Source of the DNA: Deltaproteobacteria bacterium | GTDB taxonomy: Bacteria > Bdellovibrionota > JACOXK01 > 2-02-FULL-40-11 | Length of the DNA stretch: 40,580 nucleotides | Assembly (NCBI GenBank): GCA_016198185.1 | Contig: JACQJD010000037.1 | Span: forward strand, 1 to 40,580 | Direction of reading: 5' to 3' | Shown here: positions 11,454 through 35,731 of the stretch, one piece after another | Layout: each line of letters starts with the position of its first letter | Numbering within the stretch: the stretch's first letter is position 1 | The notes under the pieces: model-generated | Told to the model about the DNA's origin: nothing | What the model saw: only the letters and a program-made list of their open reading frames with translations | Databases searched by the model: none | Made by a program: the position numbers and the translations under genes

Positions 11454-11579
11454 AATTCAGTAGTTGGAGCAAACTGTCTCTTTTTTTTACACCTAGCTAG
11501 CCCTTGAATAGAGCATAGGATTTATCTTCAACCGTGATTGTGTAAAAAAAGTATACAGATCAAAGATGGAGGGGGTGCC

Positions 11580-13139
11580 ATGTTTAATTGGAAAGAATTT
11601 GAACATTTGCATGTGGTTCGAAAATTAAAGGAAATTCTCATTCATTGGTGGAATGTAGAGGTTTTCTTCTCAGATGACCGTGGTCTTTTAAGAACCATTG
11701 AAAAGGGCGAAGAAAAAGAATTTGCCAACGCCGTTTGCAATTTGGTGATCAATACCGAACGTGGCTTTGAAAGTTTTGCGGATTTTATCACTGAAACTAC
11801 CAAAAAAATCAAAAATTCCGGTGCTGATTTTACGGTCGACGATTGGGAAATTGGGCTGAAAGCCTCCATTTACCCAATTTATATCCACGATGAATTTATG
11901 GGCTCTGTGGTTGCGGTTGGATATTTTCACGAAACAGATCTGGAGAAACAACGAACTTATTTAAAAAAGCGCCTCATTGAAATGGGACTTGGCGTAGAAG
12001 ATGTTGAAGAAGCAATTCAAACGATTAAATGTATCAAAAAAAATGAGGTCGATTATTTTCATGAGTTGGTGGGTCTGGTTGCTGAAGAAATTGTAACGCT
12101 TCACAATGAAATTTCTGTAAGAGAAGAAAGAATCAGTGAACTCAATAAAGAATTAGGCACGCGTTACAAGTACGATACGATGATTGGAAAAAGTAAACCG
12201 ATGCAAGATTTGTATTCCCTGCTAGATAAAATTCGAGAATCAGAGAGTACCGTACTCATTCAGGGTGACAATGGAACCGGTAAGGAACTCATCGCACGTG
12301 CCATTCACTATAATAGCCATCGGAAGGACCGCGTTTTTGTGACACAAAACTGTTCGGCTTTTAATGACAACCTTTTGGATTCAGAATTGTTTGGTCATAT
12401 GAAAGGGTCATTTACAGGGGCCACCCGAGATAAAAAAGGATTGTTTGAGGTCGCAAATGGCGGAACCTTCTTCTTAGATGAAATTGGCGATATGTCACAA
12501 GCCATGCAAGTCAAGATTTTGCGTGTCTTACAAGAAGGAACGTTTATTCCCGTAGGGGCAACGGAACCTAGAAAAGTAGATGTGCGTGTAATTGCAGCTA
12601 CGAATAAAGATCTCAAAGAAATGGTCGAACGCGGAGAATTTAGAGAAGATCTTTATTATCGAATTAATGTCATCAATATTTCAGTACCGGCCTTACGAGA
12701 TCGAAAGGAAGATATCCCTCTATTGATTGATTATTTTCTTGAAAAGTCGGCAAAAGAAAAAAACACGAAAAAGAAGGTTCTTGTAAAACGTGCCTATGAA
12801 AAATTGTTGGATTATAATTGGCCGGGCAATGTTCGTGAATTAGAGAATGAAATTGAAAGATTGAGCGTTCTGTCGGGCACAGACACCAAAATTACAGCCG
12901 ATATGCTTTCCCCGCGCATTAAAACTTTTGGAGACGCAAAAAGTATTCAGGGCGTACGCGTTCAAGGAAAACTCAAAGACTCCTTAGAAGAATTAGAACG
13001 TGAAATGATTAAGGAAGGCTTGCGACGCAACAGCTGGAATAAATCCAAATTAGCAAAAGAATTGGGCATTAGCCGTGCAGGCCTCATTATGAAGGTCGAA
13101 AAATTTGGCCTGGATAAACGGAAGGCGAACAAGGATTAG
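11580..13139 (+). CDS. Sigma-54-dependent transcriptional activator, intact AAA+ (Fis-type HTH)
   Basis: Enhancer-binding protein that uses ATP to open sigma-54 RNA polymerase promoters. ATG 11580 follows a strong GGAGGGGG Shine-Dalgarno and gives 519 residues. The N-terminal about 170 residues form a PocR/GAF-like sensory domain (tentative; WEIGLKASIYPIYIHDEFMG resembles the core strand) and then a coiled helix. The AAA+ domain has Walker A GDNGTGKE (229-236), the sigma-54 contact loop as GSFTGA (276-281, Ser for the usual Ala), Walker B FFLDE (D300-E301), FREDLYYRINV and LRDRKEDIP. The C-terminal Fis-type HTH is in NSWNKSKLAKELGISRAG. No receiver domain is present, so it should respond to a ligand or protein rather than phosphorylation. 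Nearby sigma-54 promoters are likely targets. Confidence 0.94.
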   Translation: MFNWKEFEHLHVVRKLKEILIHWWNVEVFFSDDRGLLRTIEKGEEKEFANAVCNLVINTERGFESFADFITETTKKIKNSGADFTVDDWEIGLKASIYPIYIHDEFMGSVVAVGYFHETDLEKQRTYLKKRLIEMGLGVEDVEEAIQTIKCIKKNEVDYFHELVGLVAEEIVTLHNEISVREERISELNKELGTRYKYDTMIGKSKPMQDLYSLLDKIRESESTVLIQGDNGTGKELIARAIHYNSHRKDRVFVTQNCSAFNDNLLDSELFGHMKGSFTGATRDKKGLFEVANGGTFFLDEIGDMSQAMQVKILRVLQEGTFIPVGATEPRKVDVRVIAATNKDLKEMVERGEFREDLYYRINVINISVPALRDRKEDIPLLIDYFLEKSAKEKNTKKKVLVKRAYEKLLDYNWPGNVRELENEIERLSVLSGTDTKITADMLSPRIKTFGDAKSIQGVRVQGKLKDSLEELEREMIKEGLRRNSWNKSKLAKELGISRAGLIMKVEKFGLDKRKANKD

Positions 13140-13280
13140 ACGCCGAAAAAAAGATCTACATCTCACATCACAAATTCTTATTTTTAAGAATCCATTCTGG
13201 AGCTATTAAAACCATATTTTCTACAATAATTTAAACATGTTAGCTGGTATTCCTTATTTTGTTTTTCTGGCATGTCCCTC

Positions 13281-13296
13281 TGGCATAGAAATTGCT
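13281..13296 (+). promoter_or_regulatory. Sigma-54 (-24/-12) promoter of the degenerate activator gene
   Basis: TGGCATAGAAATTGCT matches the sigma-54 consensus TGGCAC-N5-TTGCW with exact GG-to-GC spacing. The predicted start is near 13307, then AGGA (13310-13313) and ATG at 13319. Its position rules out an upstream TTG start at 13292 inside the promoter. Confidence 0.78.
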
Positions 13297-13318
13297 TTTT
13301 CGACTCTGCAGGAAATAT

Positions 13319-14341
13319 ATGCTCCGAACAGACTCAACCTCTTTTTCAAATTTGACGTATAAAATGAGTATGCTTTACCAAAAAGTTCATGCTCGCCTGG
13401 ATCCATCTTTAGATCAAGAACTCAAAGAATTTATGATGGATTGTCAAAAACTGAAAGAGTATGCCGATACGTGTAATCAGCAAATCGATTTGCTCCGCCA
13501 TAACATTCAACAAAAACAACAGTTCGGCTTTCTTTTCAGCAAAAATGAACACATGCTCAAAACCTTTGGGCTTGCAGAAAAATACAAAGACCTAGATTCT
13601 CCAATACTCATCACCGGTGAAAAAGGATGCGCCAAGGAAGCTTTGGCTCGCCTCATCCATTTAAATTCGTTTCGAAAAGGTCCCTTCGTCATGACAGATG
13701 AACATTTTTCAATGGCCTCTTTTTTCGAGCAGAAAGAAGCCACCCTCTATTTTCCACATGTCTCTTTGCTTTCACCGGCATCTCAAAAACTTTTGGAAAG
13801 CTGCCTCCATCATGCATGGCAACATCACAATCGTTTAATTGTTTCCGTTCTACATCCTGGACATTTAGAACCCTCTCTCCACCACAAAATGAATCCTTTG
13901 GTCCTGTCTGTTCTACCGCTACGCGAACGAAAAGAAGATATTTTGCATTTGATGGATATTTTTATACGGGAATTGTCTCAAAATAAAAAAACGTTAGACC
14001 ATTTTTCAACCGCCGCACTCAAAAAAATACTGGAATACCCTTGGCCAGGAAATATCGGTGAACTCAAAAGCGTTGTGAAACAAATTTTACGACTCAATCC
14101 AAATGAAAAGAGTTATTCCTTATCTCATTTACCTGAAAACATTGTTGGAAGTTCTCTTAAAAATTTTGCTTCTATTATTGAATCTTCCCAAACATTACCG
14201 CAAGCCGAAGCAATTCTAGAAGAAGCTTTGGTCAGAGAATCACTGGTTAAACACAATTGGAATAAGACTCAAGTTTCAAAAGATTTGGGAATTTCGCGTT
14301 CAGGATTGCTTCAAAAAGTTCAAAAATACCATATCAAATAA
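13319..14341 (+). CDS. Degenerate sigma-54 activator paralogue lacking ATPase and sigma-54-contact motifs
   Basis: A 340-residue relative of the preceding activator. The start at 13319 has AGGA 5 nt upstream and lies downstream of a sigma-54 promoter. It has a short helical N-terminus and no sensor domain. Walker A has become GEKGCAKE (100-107; Ala replaces the Gly before Lys). Walker B DE has become P146-H147 (TLYFPH). Between these two motifs it is about 25 residues shorter than the intact protein, so the GAFTGA loop is deleted. Retained are the LRERKEDIL segment, the YPWPGNIGELK segment and the Fis-type HTH (NWNKTQVSKDLGISRSG), which closely matches that of the intact activator. It should bind DNA but cannot drive open-complex formation, so it may be a repressor, decoy or co-oligomer. 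The frame is intact, so it is not simply a pseudogene. Confidence 0.85.
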   Translation: MLRTDSTSFSNLTYKMSMLYQKVHARLDPSLDQELKEFMMDCQKLKEYADTCNQQIDLLRHNIQQKQQFGFLFSKNEHMLKTFGLAEKYKDLDSPILITGEKGCAKEALARLIHLNSFRKGPFVMTDEHFSMASFFEQKEATLYFPHVSLLSPASQKLLESCLHHAWQHHNRLIVSVLHPGHLEPSLHHKMNPLVLSVLPLRERKEDILHLMDIFIRELSQNKKTLDHFSTAALKKILEYPWPGNIGELKSVVKQILRLNPNEKSYSLSHLPENIVGSSLKNFASIIESSQTLPQAEAILEEALVRESLVKHNWNKTQVSKDLGISRSGLLQKVQKYHIK

Positions 14342-30741: not shown

Positions 30742-31179
30742 TTAATCTTCCTTTTTAAAAAGGGTTAACGTGTTCTGCGATTTATCCCACACCAGAGGGT
30801 AAACTTTTGTCTCGCGTTCCACAGGGTGAAAAAAAGAAACCAGAAGGTCTAACTGATGATCTTGATTGATATCCACAAAAGCCACTGGCGTAATAGATTT
30901 ATGATCATACAGAAATCCATCGTCCATATTTAAAAAAGCAAAGCTCACTTTAGATGACAAAAAAAGTCCACTTTGAACTTGAACCATAATCCCATGTTCC
31001 GTTTGAATTTTAGAAACTTTTTCAAGTTGGCCATCGAAGTTTAAATCAATGTTTTCTTCAAATAGCGTTTTTTGAGAAGCATGAGACACAATAGAAGATA
31101 CCAGCGGCGTAAAACGTCCATTAGCCCAAAGAACCAATATCACTCCAATCATCAAAATCAGCCCCTTTCGAAAATCCAC
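30742..31179 (-). CDS. Membrane-anchored protein with VCBS/EF-hand-like calcium loops
   Basis: 145 residues. GTG 31179 is supported by GGAGG 8 nt upstream. One N-terminal hydrophobic helix (GLILMIGVILVLWANG) anchors it, with the rest in the periplasm. Two short acidic loops, DLNFDGQLEKV and DINQDHQLDLLV, have the D-x-N-x-D-x-x-x-D pattern of FG-GAP/VCBS-type calcium-binding repeats, each followed by a strand. The family as a whole is not recognised. It is the first gene of the operon with the FHA-TPR protein (1-nt gap), so the two products probably meet in the periplasm. Transcription should come from the sigma-54 promoter at 31224-31239. Confidence 0.78.
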   Translation of the reverse strand: MDFRKGLILMIGVILVLWANGRFTPLVSSIVSHASQKTLFEENIDLNFDGQLEKVSKIQTEHGIMVQVQSGLFLSSKVSFAFLNMDDGFLYDHKSITPVAFVDINQDHQLDLLVSFFHPVERETKVYPLVWDKSQNTLTLFKKED

Positions 31180-31223: not shown

Positions 31224-31239
31224 TGCAAGGAGCATGCCA
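31224..31239 (-). promoter_or_regulatory. Sigma-54 (-24/-12) promoter of the FHA-TPR operon
   Basis: On the minus strand it reads TGGCATGCTCCTTGCA, matching TGGCAC-N5-TTGCW with exact spacing. The predicted start is near 31213, about 34 nt before the GTG at 31179, leaving room for the GGAGG ribosome site. Confidence 0.78.
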
Positions 31240-31527: not shown

Positions 31528-33498
31528 TTAAAAATCGGCCTCAACCCCACTGGCAACGCTAAAATCATCTATTTTCGGGGAATACGATCCATCCAAGTAC
31601 CATCTCCATGGGTCTACCATCACCATCAGCCGACTTCCAAACCGTTTTCGTGAGGCTGGAAAATAAATTGGAAATTCCCCAATCATAGGCCCTTGAATGT
31701 AACTTGAAAGTCGAAAGTGATCGATCTCAAACCCACTTTGAAAGCGGCCCCGTAAACCAAGTTCATTTTGAATCAAATCGCTTTTTGAAAAAAAAACAAT
31801 TTCTTCTTCTTTTTTCTCAAAATCCGAAAACCAGGGCACGCGATAACTCATTTCTGATTGATACATCACAGAATCCCATAAAATAGCGGGCTCCAAAGAA
31901 GCAATATTTTCAAGCCCCGGCTTAAAATGGGCTTGCGCTCGATGTTCCAATCTTAAATCTCCCCCTAAATATTGCGCTTCATAAGCAAGCCCAGATCTCA
32001 CATCAATCTCAGATTGAATATTGATTCCAGCATCTCCATTCAAAGAAGTTAAACCATCCACCCGAAAACCGCTGATCCATTGAAACTCATGCGCCTTTTT
32101 TATTTGGTAAAGCGGAACAATGGCTTGTTGATCAATATGAAAAAACAAATACCCAATATCTGCGTCGCTTTCTAAACGATCACGAATACCTAATGCAATG
32201 CCTGTCTGACCCGGAAAATAATCTGATGGCGCATAAGACAAAGCCGCAGCAACGGCTGCATACTGCGCAATGCCATCTTGTCCAAGCGTCAATTGAAGAT
32301 GGACATCTTCATTCGCCTCCGGAGACAAACGAACGCCCATGCTGTTTAGAATAGGATCTGCCAAAGGATCAATCTCCGAAGGATCTCCTGCCACGGCTTC
32401 AATATTAAACAAATAAAAAGAACTCGCCAATCGAGCGATCGTACGCCCATAGGGTTTGGAAAGACCGTAAGATAAAGCGATATCTTCTTCTCCCTGATCT
32501 AAAGCAAGTGCCCCTTCCAAATTTTTTGAACTTTGCAAAACGTCATAATTAATTTTGTGAATGACATTGGCATTATCAATATCCGTCATCACGGTGGTTG
32601 CATGTCTTGAAAGCTCATAGATCGTCGTATAATCCACCACATAGACATCTGAAAAACCAAGTTTCTGTGAGATTTTTCCTAATGCAGATGCAATGTCTCG
32701 ACAGACACCTGCTGCCTCATGACGATTTTGAGTCACACCAAATTTTTGTTTTTGATAAGCAACCGTTAACATCTGTCCAACAGAAACATCCTCCCCCACC
32801 ACACGCCAAGGTTTATAGGTTGTATCTTGACTTCGTTTTTCATCATAATTATTCAAGAAGAGCCGCCCATAAACTTGGATCAATAATAACTTCTCAGATG
32901 TACTCAAAAGATGCCCTTGGTTAATCGCAGTCAACTTTTCAAAAAAAAGATTTTCGTAAGCGCCCTCTGTTTTTGCCTGTTCTCCTTGAGAAAATGTTTG
33001 ATGAAAGGCTTGTATCACCTTGAGATTGCTTTCACTGAGTTGGCTTAAGACCCCCACCACAGACCTACGGCGATCCCGATAATTAGGATCTGAAAGATCC
33101 ATGTAAAACAAAGGATCCCCTTTCAAAAGAGTTACAGAATGATCCAAATAGGTCGACATTTCTGAAAGTGCCCTGCGATACTCCAGCTCATTGAGAATAA
33201 GCCCCCCCTGTTGTGTTAGAAAGATATCCTTAAAAAAGATTTTTTGAAGCCCTATATAATTTGAAATGAATTGAACAGCTACATCGGTCAATTCAAAGCC
33301 TGACTCCTTTAAAGAAATATGGCTTTCGAAAAGATTTCCAACGGCCTCACGATGGCCTGTGCGAAGCCAAAACGTCAGTTGTGTTTTTTCATCTTTATCT
33401 AAAAGAGGCTCTTCTGGCGGATTTGCAAAACAAAACAACGATAGAAAACTTAATGGTCCAACAATCCAGCCAATTTTAAAACACAACGACTGTTTCAA
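31528..33498 (-). CDS. Exported transglutaminase-like protein with C-terminal barrel-like region
   Basis: 656 residues with a signal peptide (cleavage after CFA near residue 26). The helical N-terminal half leads to a segment with a possible papain-like/transglutaminase triad: Cys266 in AGVCRDIA, His299 in RHATTVMTD and Asp319 in HKINYD. The C-terminal about 250 residues alternate in the manner of an outer-membrane beta-barrel and end in VEADF with a terminal Phe, the usual barrel-assembly signal. So it may be an outer-membrane protein carrying a periplasmic cysteine-protease or transglutaminase-like domain. The triad assignment is by pattern only. TTG 33498 is the earliest possible start; AAGGGA directly abuts it, so the start is uncertain. 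It is followed by a strong inverted repeat. Confidence 0.75.
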   Translation of the reverse strand: MKQSLCFKIGWIVGPLSFLSLFCFANPPEEPLLDKDEKTQLTFWLRTGHREAVGNLFESHISLKESGFELTDVAVQFISNYIGLQKIFFKDIFLTQQGGLILNELEYRRALSEMSTYLDHSVTLLKGDPLFYMDLSDPNYRDRRRSVVGVLSQLSESNLKVIQAFHQTFSQGEQAKTEGAYENLFFEKLTAINQGHLLSTSEKLLLIQVYGRLFLNNYDEKRSQDTTYKPWRVVGEDVSVGQMLTVAYQKQKFGVTQNRHEAAGVCRDIASALGKISQKLGFSDVYVVDYTTIYELSRHATTVMTDIDNANVIHKINYDVLQSSKNLEGALALDQGEEDIALSYGLSKPYGRTIARLASSFYLFNIEAVAGDPSEIDPLADPILNSMGVRLSPEANEDVHLQLTLGQDGIAQYAAVAAALSYAPSDYFPGQTGIALGIRDRLESDADIGYLFFHIDQQAIVPLYQIKKAHEFQWISGFRVDGLTSLNGDAGINIQSEIDVRSGLAYEAQYLGGDLRLEHRAQAHFKPGLENIASLEPAILWDSVMYQSEMSYRVPWFSDFEKKEEEIVFFSKSDLIQNELGLRGRFQSGFEIDHFRLSSYIQGPMIGEFPIYFPASRKRFGSRLMVMVDPWRWYLDGSYSPKIDDFSVASGVEADF

Positions 33499-33645: not shown

Positions 33646-34041
33646 CTAAAAAAAGTTTTTGGTTCCCCAAAGAAAATAATGAACCAAGGCAGAAGCAATG
33701 GCTAAGATCCCCAAAGGTAATTGAAGAGGGGTCATTTTTTGACTGATCTGATACAGAACCGGAACTTGTGGCTTCACATTTGAAAATGCCAACCAAAATC
33801 CGATCAGCAAAGCTGCCATTCCGGGAATGAGATCTCCAACAAATTGTTCTGTTCCCAGAGGATAAAAAAGAGCAAGCGCTCCACCCACAAAACAAAAAAT
33901 ACCTAATAAAATTTGAACTGGAGCCATTTTATTAAGTAAATTTCGGTGTTCATAATGATGGATTGCATACCAGGACCATACCGCAAAGATCCCTGCCAAT
34001 CCCACACCATAGGTCATTGCCCAAAATGTGATCTTATACAT
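33646..34041 (-). CDS. Small inner-membrane protein with about four helices
   Basis: Family not recognised. 131 residues with four hydrophobic segments: about 8-28 (GVGLAGIFAVWSWYAI), 40-60 (PVQILLGIFCFVGGALALFY), 68-88 (LIPGMAALLIGFWLAF) and 105-125 (LPLGILAIASALVHYFLW). There are few polar residues inside the helices, so it is unlikely to be a transporter on its own. ATG 34041 has GGAGG 6 nt upstream. It is transcribed alone, from a good promoter (TTGACA-18-TACACT) whose start point falls inside the palindrome ACTAACGTTAGT, and ends at an intrinsic terminator. A dedicated repressor is therefore likely, though none is encoded next to it. Confidence 0.82.
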   Translation of the reverse strand: MYKITFWAMTYGVGLAGIFAVWSWYAIHHYEHRNLLNKMAPVQILLGIFCFVGGALALFYPLGTEQFVGDLIPGMAALLIGFWLAFSNVKPQVPVLYQISQKMTPLQLPLGILAIASALVHYFLWGTKNFF

Positions 34042-34100
34042 AGTTAACCTCCACAGGCTTTAGCCGCCTTGTAAATGCATTTCGTCATACAACAAACCTT

Positions 34101-34112
34101 ACTAACGTTAGT
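34101..34112. promoter_or_regulatory. Perfect 12-bp palindrome at a transcription start (operator candidate)
   Basis: ACTAACGTTAGT overlaps the -10 box (34115-34110) and predicted start of the membrane-protein gene. The half-site style resembles TetR-family operators; the protein that binds it is not known. Confidence 0.5.
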
Positions 34113-34139
34113 GTAGAAGAAATTTTTCGGTTCTGTCAA
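34110..34139 (-). promoter_or_regulatory. Predicted promoter of the 4-TM protein gene
   Basis: Minus strand: -35 TTGACA (34139-34134), 18 nt, -10 TACACT (34115-34110), leader of about 62 nt. Confidence 0.6.
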
Positions 34140-34166: not shown

Positions 34167-34182
34167 TGGCATAAACATTGCA
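34167..34182 (+). promoter_or_regulatory. Sigma-54 (-24/-12) promoter of a 27-residue peptide gene
   Basis: TGGCATAAACATTGCA matches TGGCAC-N5-TTGCA with exact spacing. The predicted start is near 34193, followed by AGAAGGA (34196-34202) and ATG at 34209. The layout is the same as at 13281-13319. Confidence 0.78.
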
Positions 34183-34208
34183 AGTAATTAAAATTAGAAG
34201 GATTTTTT

Positions 34209-34292
34209 ATGAAAATAATACTAGCATCTATGGCGATGATCCTTGGAATCATCAATATTTACATGGGGTTAAAGAATATTCGTCGTTTTTAA
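34209..34292 (+). CDS. 27-residue single-helix membrane peptide under sigma-54 control
   Basis: ATG 34209 to TAA 34290-34292, with AGAAGGA 6 nt upstream. The product has one hydrophobic helix (IILASMAMILGIINIYMGL) and a basic tail (KNIRRF), the layout of small regulatory membrane peptides with the C-terminus in the cytoplasm. It is too short for routine gene finding, but a near-consensus sigma-54 promoter and a well-placed Shine-Dalgarno directly precede it, and no longer gene on the plus strand follows that could own the promoter. It may modulate a membrane partner, perhaps a stress or envelope complex; the partner is unknown. Confidence 0.6.
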   Translation: MKIILASMAMILGIINIYMGLKNIRRF

Positions 34293-34353
34293 TACCTGTC
34301 TGTTTGGTGTCAAATTGCTCAATATTGATTAAAAAATAGACGCTTTTTTAAGC

Positions 34354-35676
34354 CTACGAACCAGAACTGATCGTTCCTTTTAGATCATACGTATACGCTT
34401 TATTGAATCGCACGGGATAAAACTGGCCTACCTGTAACGCTTTGTCAGATGCGACATAGACATGGCCATCGATATCTGGCGCTTGCCCCTCATAGCGCCC
34501 CTGGTAAAGGGTTGAGGACTCCTGCCAATTTTCAATTAATACGGAGGCAGTGGATCCCACCTTTTTTTGATGGTGTTTACGTGAAATTTCAGACTGAACC
34601 ATCATTAATTTTTCTTTACGCTTTTCTTTCACTTTTTGGTCGATTTGACCTTTTAATGTCTCCGCATGGGTGCCTTCTTCCTGTGAATAGGTAAAAACCC
34701 CAACATGGTCAAATTCCATTTGCTTCACAAAGCCATAGAGGGTCTCAAAATGTTCCGCTGATTCACCTGGATAACCCGTCATAAAGGAAGTTCGTAAGGT
34801 TAACTTGTCGATGCGATTTCGTAATTCATCAATCAGATTTAAAATCATGGTTTGATTCACACCTCGACGCATCGATTGTAAAATATCATTGTGAATGTGC
34901 TGTAAAGGCAAATCCAAATACTTGCATATCTTTTCTTCACTGGAAATGAATTCAATCAGCTCAGAAGAAATTTTATCCGGGTAGCAATACAACAACCGAA
35001 TCCACTTTAAATCTTTGATTGTAACCAGCTTTTTTAAAAGAGCCGACAAGGTTGTTTTCGCATCTTTCAGATCTGTCCCATAAGACGTTAAATCTTGCCC
35101 AATTAAATTTAATTCTCTAACACCCAGGGCTACAAGTCTCTGGGCTTCTTCCTGTAGATTTTCAATGCTTTGGCTCTTTTGCAGACCTCTCATCGTCGGA
35201 ATAATGCAAAAACCACATTTTCGGTTGCACCCCTCTGTGATTTTTAAGTATGCGGTGTAAAAAGGCATCGAATTGATCCGAGGTGCATCGTAAGCATGAA
35301 TATAGGAGGGGATGGAGTAGTTGCCGCGTTGCTCAGATTCGACAATGCTTGCAATTTTATAATATTCACCCGTTCCAATAAAATGATCCACTTCGGGCAA
35401 AAGTACTTCAATTTCTTTTTGATAGCGCTGCGCCAAACACCCTGCCACCACTAACTTTTTAAGCTTTCCCGTTTTTTTAAATTCAGACACTTCCAGGATC
35501 GTATCGATAGATTCTTTTTTGGCATCCTGAATAAATGCGCAGGAATTAACCACAATCAGTTCTGCCTCCTGTGGTTCATCGGTATACTCATAAAAATGCT
35601 CGAGCAAAGAACCAAACATGACTTCAGAGTCAACGCGGTTTTTAGGACACCCTAAGGTAATAAAATGAAACTTCAT
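34354..35676 (-). CDS. rimO: Ribosomal protein S12 methylthiotransferase RimO
   Basis: Radical-SAM enzyme that adds a methylthio group to the conserved Asp of ribosomal protein S12. ATG 35676 gives 440 residues starting MKFHFITLGCPKNRVDSE, the standard N-terminus; the frame is open farther upstream but would add an atypical stretch. The UPF0004 domain supplies the auxiliary cluster cysteines (LGCPKN, NSCAF, AGCLAQR). The radical-SAM motif is C-x3-C-x2-C in EGCNRKCGFC. The C-terminal TRAM domain covers about the last 65 residues (GSTASVLIEN onward). LGCPKN with VDSE separates RimO from MiaB. It has its own promoter although ftsK lies upstream on the same strand. A weak GCTT/AAGC hairpin followed by a T-rich stretch lies just past the stop. 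Confidence 0.95.
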   Translation of the reverse strand: MKFHFITLGCPKNRVDSEVMFGSLLEHFYEYTDEPQEAELIVVNSCAFIQDAKKESIDTILEVSEFKKTGKLKKLVVAGCLAQRYQKEIEVLLPEVDHFIGTGEYYKIASIVESEQRGNYSIPSYIHAYDAPRINSMPFYTAYLKITEGCNRKCGFCIIPTMRGLQKSQSIENLQEEAQRLVALGVRELNLIGQDLTSYGTDLKDAKTTLSALLKKLVTIKDLKWIRLLYCYPDKISSELIEFISSEEKICKYLDLPLQHIHNDILQSMRRGVNQTMILNLIDELRNRIDKLTLRTSFMTGYPGESAEHFETLYGFVKQMEFDHVGVFTYSQEEGTHAETLKGQIDQKVKEKRKEKLMMVQSEISRKHHQKKVGSTASVLIENWQESSTLYQGRYEGQAPDIDGHVYVASDKALQVGQFYPVRFNKAYTYDLKGTISSGS

Positions 35677-35702
35677 ATCGAAAATGGGGTAAAAGGTGAG
35701 CA

Positions 35703-35731
35703 AAAGTAGCATACCCCATGACAAGTGTCAA
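35703..35731 (-). promoter_or_regulatory. Predicted promoter of rimO
   Basis: Minus strand: perfect -35 TTGACA (35731-35726), 17 nt, -10 TACTTT (35708-35703). It sits immediately after the ftsK stop; leader of about 20 nt. Confidence 0.6.

Follow-up and report, generated by a model that had tools for sequence, protein, structure and literature searches.

A conserved 27-residue peptide with one predicted membrane helix, encoded behind a sigma-54 promoter in a small family of uncultured bacteria

A peptide of 27 residues preceded by a sigma-54 promoter is almost certainly the product of a real, conserved gene. It belongs to a previously unnamed family of a known kind, found only in one small family of uncultured bacteria. 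The gene lies on a contig of 40,580 nucleotides (the whole stretch of DNA that was analysed, hereafter the window) from a genome of 1.77 Mb assembled in 93 contigs and 92% complete. A first-pass annotation had described a near-consensus -24/-12 promoter, an AGAAGGA ribosome site and a 28-codon frame following one another; all three are present where it placed them, and the promoter motif is exact. The promoter TGGCATAAACATTGCA (TGGCAT-AAACA-TTGCA, 34167..34182, + strand) matches TGGCAY-N5-TTGCW at every position. The C of its -12 GC is at 34181 and the +1 is therefore predicted near 34193, in agreement with the start site proposed earlier. The Shine-Dalgarno AGAAGGA is read from the sequence at 34197..34203 (+) and the frame, 28 codons including the stop, extends from an ATG at 34209 to a stop ending at 34292 (+), with MKIILASMAMILGIINIYMGLKNIRRF as its 27-residue product. 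Immediately downstream, a possible but weak intrinsic terminator (34298..34349, +) consists of a hairpin GTCTGTTT...AAATAGAC with a long loop, then a T-run, GCTTTTTT. This hairpin appears in both the MFE and the centroid structures of the predicted transcript, and a strict terminator scan found neither it nor any other terminator ahead of the convergent neighbour, a rimO-like radical-SAM methylthiotransferase (34354..35724, - strand; UPF0004, Radical_SAM and TRAM_2 domains) whose position is kept in relatives. Prodigal's usual lower gene limit is 90 nt, and it is plausible that a peptide gene of 84 nt would escape standard annotation.

Homologs of the peptide, one copy each, were found by sequence search in four of five relatives from the same bacterial family (E values of 3e-3 to 9e-5 taken singly). 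The fifth relative, whose genome is 61% complete, likewise yielded no rimO match at a strict threshold, so that its lack of a homolog may reflect a missing region. In all four homolog-bearing relatives (G001-G004) the peptide gene is flanked by the convergent rimO and by a divergent membrane-protein gene, and a perfect TGGCAY-N5-TTGCA lies 25-38 nt upstream of the start codon, with a GGA-containing ribosome site at the equivalent position. Promoter, Shine-Dalgarno and frame are thus retained together in 5/5 same-family genomes holding the site, which represent four genera with the window genome included. This bears out the proposal that the peptide has a sigma-54 promoter of its own, and answers the check suggested with it, whether the frame persists where the promoter does: it is conserved in every relative that keeps the promoter. 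Start codons are GTG in three relatives and ATG with one extra codon in the other. Translation yields MKILIPLLAIIVGIINIYMGLKRS, MRILIPLLAIIVGIINIYMGLKRSS, MRIIIPVLAIMVGIINIYLGLKRS (with GTG starts taken as M) and MVKIVLPLVLMAVGILNIYIGLRNSNSKN, giving a family size of 24-29 amino acids and a conserved core G13-I-[IL]-N-I-Y-x-G-L21-[KR]. The KNIRRF tail pointed out in the first-pass annotation is present in the window peptide but is not a family feature, the relatives ending in KRS, KRSS, KRS and RNSNSKN.

The pattern of substitutions follows the reading frame. Among the five sequences, variable columns are distributed 11/5/16 of 21 over the three codon positions, position 2 being the most conserved. 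The BLOSUM-weighted substitution score is 292, against a column-shuffle mean of -100 (sd 88), and 0/20,000 shuffles reach it; with one member per genus the score is still above all 20,000 shuffles. Since substitutions track the frame, we conclude that the frame encodes a protein. Across the five intergenic regions conservation falls off downstream of the stop codon. An antisense coding frame, which also had a high shuffle score, was rejected because it contains an in-frame stop at the identical place in 5/5 sequences.

The family appears narrowly distributed. A five-sequence profile run on 369 genomes of the phylum matched convincingly (E 2.6e-13 or better) only in the same five genomes, the homologs' E values of ~1e-13 to 1e-14 coming from a profile that includes those very sequences; the next match had E 0.008 and partial coverage. 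Two genomes that belong to the class but are more distant had no homolog. Matches within frames of 1037-1055 aa in other families of the phylum were dropped by the profile and are attributed to chance similarity between helices. Among 84,980 species genomes, a scan with short peptide patterns, which diverged relatives may escape, returned only two loci, both in groundwater MAGs labelled 'Deltaproteobacteria' (JACPST01 and JACPSU01), with match positions agreeing with G004 and G001. No Pfam, NCBIfam or PDB family exceeded threshold for the peptide, with sub-threshold matches only.

The element at 34167-34182 is very probably a sigma-54 promoter. RpoN is encoded in the window genome (E = 6.7e-63), together with several Sigma54_activat proteins, including four strong ones that carry GAFTGA or GSFTGA. 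The exact TGGCAY-N5-TTGCW motif occurs at 67 sites in the 1.77-Mb genome, while the same two half-sites at four wrong spacings total 22 and the reversed pattern 2. Each wrong spacing is about 12-fold rarer than the correct one; from the 22 sites over four spacings, 5 or 6 of the 67 are expected by chance, so that about nine in ten should be genuine. Thirty-one of the 67 sites precede a Shine-Dalgarno and an ORF of at least 100 codons with a hydrophobic N-terminus, compared to 2.4% of random window positions. The downstream genes encode mostly lipoproteins and other exported proteins, along with a Flp-pilin-like protein and others. Same-family genomes hold 42-77 exact sites each in 1.2-2.0 Mb, and two genomes from another family of the class hold 37 and 49. 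Counts elsewhere in the phylum are 8-22 sites in 2.7-3.4 Mb for three other families and 36 in 1.7 Mb for one more. We place the peptide gene within a large sigma-54 regulon of the envelope type.

This abundance corrects the premise of the first-pass annotation that sigma-54 promoters are rare, and with it the deduction that a promoter devoted to so small a product implies a specific regulatory role: where sites are so abundant, a dedicated promoter is by itself no evidence of a special role. The observation was confirmed, and its interpretation was half right. A regulatory role of the peptide at the membrane is possible. What is unusual is that the entire transcription unit encodes just 24-29 residues. 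A limited literature search found no described sigma-54 gene encoding 24-29 amino acids, and to our knowledge none as small as this one has been described.

Several other features of the regulon were noted. An inverted repeat, TGTC-N7-9-GACA, lies 98-171 nt upstream of the -24 element in 6 of 67 upstream regions (L008, L013, L029, L059, L062 and L072) against about 1.2 expected, a weak enrichment that makes it a candidate activator site. The dyad was not seen at the peptide promoter in the window, where no convincing enhancer site was found. Elsewhere in the window (11538-14341, +), a gene for a sigma-54 activator with a PocR-like domain and a GSFTGA motif is followed by a sigma-54 site (13281-13296, +) that lies directly ahead of a gene for a second, diverged 349-aa activator-like protein with only partial Sigma54_activat similarity; the two could form an activator cascade.

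The peptide has the features of a single membrane helix, as had been suggested. Across the family the best 19-residue Kyte-Doolittle mean is 2.17-2.52, and there is no acidic residue; one basic residue precedes the helix and two or three follow it in the five sequences. One helix, no acidic residue and a basic tail together suggest a bitopic inner-membrane peptide, with perhaps an N-out/C-in topology. The five sequences agree at residues 13, 14, 16, 17, 18, 20 and 21 and, within 12-21, differ only at 12, 15 and 19. These last three fall on one face of the helix, an arrangement as tight in 6/120 triples; it concerns only three variable positions and has a probability of about 5% by chance. It suggests a helix with one side towards the lipid and a specific surface for contacts, which may contain G13, N16, Y18 and G20.

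Divergently from the peptide gene lies a gene for a 131-aa membrane protein of no known family (33646..34041, -). A promoter scan assigns it a likely sigma-70 promoter, TTGACA-18-TACACT (34110..34139, -), which starts some 27 bp upstream of the -24 element of the peptide gene; TGTCAA (= TTGACA) and a TGTA block are kept in 5/5 intergenic regions. A perfect palindrome, ACTAACGTTAGT, at 34100-34111 adjoins the -10 of this gene and could be a repressor operator; it is not conserved among the relatives' intergenic regions. The 131-aa protein was found in the same five genomes as the peptide and in no other of the 59 searched. Its AlphaFold model has membrane-length helices (mean pLDDT 81), with no solved-structure fold match at E <= 0.001 and no Pfam match over cut-off, and peptide and neighbour have no profile similarity to each other. 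In G001 the membrane gene has lost 43 bp by comparison with G004, which shifts its frame, while the peptide has stayed intact; this speaks mildly against strict dependence, although an assembly error could also explain it. The 131-aa protein is perhaps the best candidate partner of the peptide, and we offer it as a guess.

Further along the same strand, a gene for a 145-aa exported-looking protein (30742..31179, -), hydrophobic near its N-terminus and weakly similar to FG-GAP (FG-GAP_3, E=0.0011, under the cut-off), is headed by a second sigma-54 promoter (31224-31239, -), a site found in 5/5 family genomes. In the relatives, the gene for its exported-looking counterpart adjoins the divergent membrane gene; in the window genome only, a 656-aa gene (31528-33498, -) with no Pfam match stands between the two, and it is missing from that place in 4/4 relatives.

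On this basis, we propose that the locus is a monocistronic gene, under sigma-54, whose product is a bitopic micropeptide of the inner membrane acting by helix-helix contacts. Promoter conservation, coding selection, hydrophobicity, lineage restriction, synteny and regulon context are its computed support; expression, insertion, topology, partner and effect are its predicted parts, and we regard the proposal as a whole as reasonably probable. An enhancer-binding protein would activate RNA polymerase-sigma-54 at 34167-34182, and a short mRNA would start near 34193, its Shine-Dalgarno driving translation of the 27 residues. The peptide would then insert as one helix, its basic C-terminus probably cytoplasmic, and would act non-enzymatically, through side-to-side helix contacts made by its conserved C-terminal half (G13, N16, I17, Y18, G20). 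The target could be the peptide itself, in an oligomer, or a membrane partner, for which the divergent 131-aa protein would be the first candidate. Its expression would form part of the large sigma-54 programme by which the lineage turns on cell-surface and exported proteins. A bolder version, a lineage-specific switch in which the helix, made only upon firing of a sigma-54 activator, binds the divergent membrane protein and so ties the programme of surface proteins to inner-membrane state or activity, we hold to be improbable.

The most serious alternative is that the peptide acts alone on the bilayer, through its fluidity, its potential or a self-dimer, in the manner of E. coli YohP and without a dedicated protein partner. 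The peptide shares with YohP its length of 27 amino acids, an MKIIL start, a single helix and glycines in that helix, and YohP reportedly forms dimers via a glycine motif and reduces both the potential and the fluidity of the membrane (PMC12719787). However, the two do not align by BLASTP, YohP lacks N-I-Y-x-G-L, and the near-invariant GI[IL]NIYxGL block, with its Asn and Tyr, exceeds what a generic action on the bilayer would need. We prefer contact between the helix and a membrane partner as the mode of action, and consider an effect on lipids alone rather unlikely.

Small RNAs driven by sigma-54 are known, and the locus might instead produce a regulatory RNA, perhaps antisense to the 3' end of rimO, with the short frame incidental or secondary. 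The transcript does head towards rimO, with no terminator in between by the strict scan. Yet the frame-specific substitutions, whose score beats 20,000/20,000 shuffles, and the drop in conservation past the stop codon are those of a coding sequence; moreover, the predicted transcript of 153 nt is no more stable than its shuffles (z = 0.33) and has no Rfam match, which makes an RNA function very unlikely. Activator-dependent promoters are unusual among type I toxins, and this counts, with the absence of an antisense sigma-70-like promoter opposite the frame in a promoter scan, the single copy, the conserved, non-mobile synteny and the weakly structured mRNA, against the highly improbable reading of the peptide as a type I toxin kept in check by the antisense RNA of a toxin-antitoxin pair, even though its size and hydrophobicity fit such toxins as TimP (PMC7667032).

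The bitopic micropeptide that we propose belongs to a small (~1.8 Mb) genome where many genes for exported proteins appear to be under sigma-54, and which could be searched for further overlooked targets. More generally, conservation of a promoter together with a short frame can uncover genes below annotation length limits.

Among known peptides, the closest analogue in kind is YohP (b4679), which is no detectable homolog. It is an inner-membrane protein, reported to be mainly N-out/C-in and to dimerise through a glycine motif (PMC12719787). Besides its length and its single hydrophobic helix with a glycine inside, it resembles the window peptide in the basic residue after the helix and in its small gene adjoining a tRNA-modification gene, dusC. 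Homology was rejected, BLASTP giving no alignment at E <= 100; when the family is aligned with YohP, only I3 and one glycine are common to all, the latter aligned with a gap. YohP also differs in lacking the NIYxGL motif, in its lineage and in having no exact TGGCAY-N5-TTGCW in the ~280 bases upstream. A weak similarity to the C-terminal helix of YtpI-like proteins (PF14007) spans the whole peptide (E = 0.045, 14.6 bits), but it falls below the 29.4-bit cut-off of an 87-position profile and most likely reflects chance between hydrophobic helices. AcrZ, KdpF and CydX are likewise accessory, single-helix bitopic peptides, and in this class the helix binds one larger membrane complex (AcrZ-AcrB, PMC7267776; CydX, PMC4325964); the peptide described here differs in being under sigma-54 control, in having only a candidate partner and in matching no family. 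At the level of the regulon, sigma-54 has been described as controlling the exterior of bacteria (Francke et al. 2011, PMC3162934), and the sites of the window genome, which mostly precede lipoprotein and exported-protein genes, resemble such regulons, with the difference that the target here is a tiny monocistronic gene for a predicted membrane peptide.
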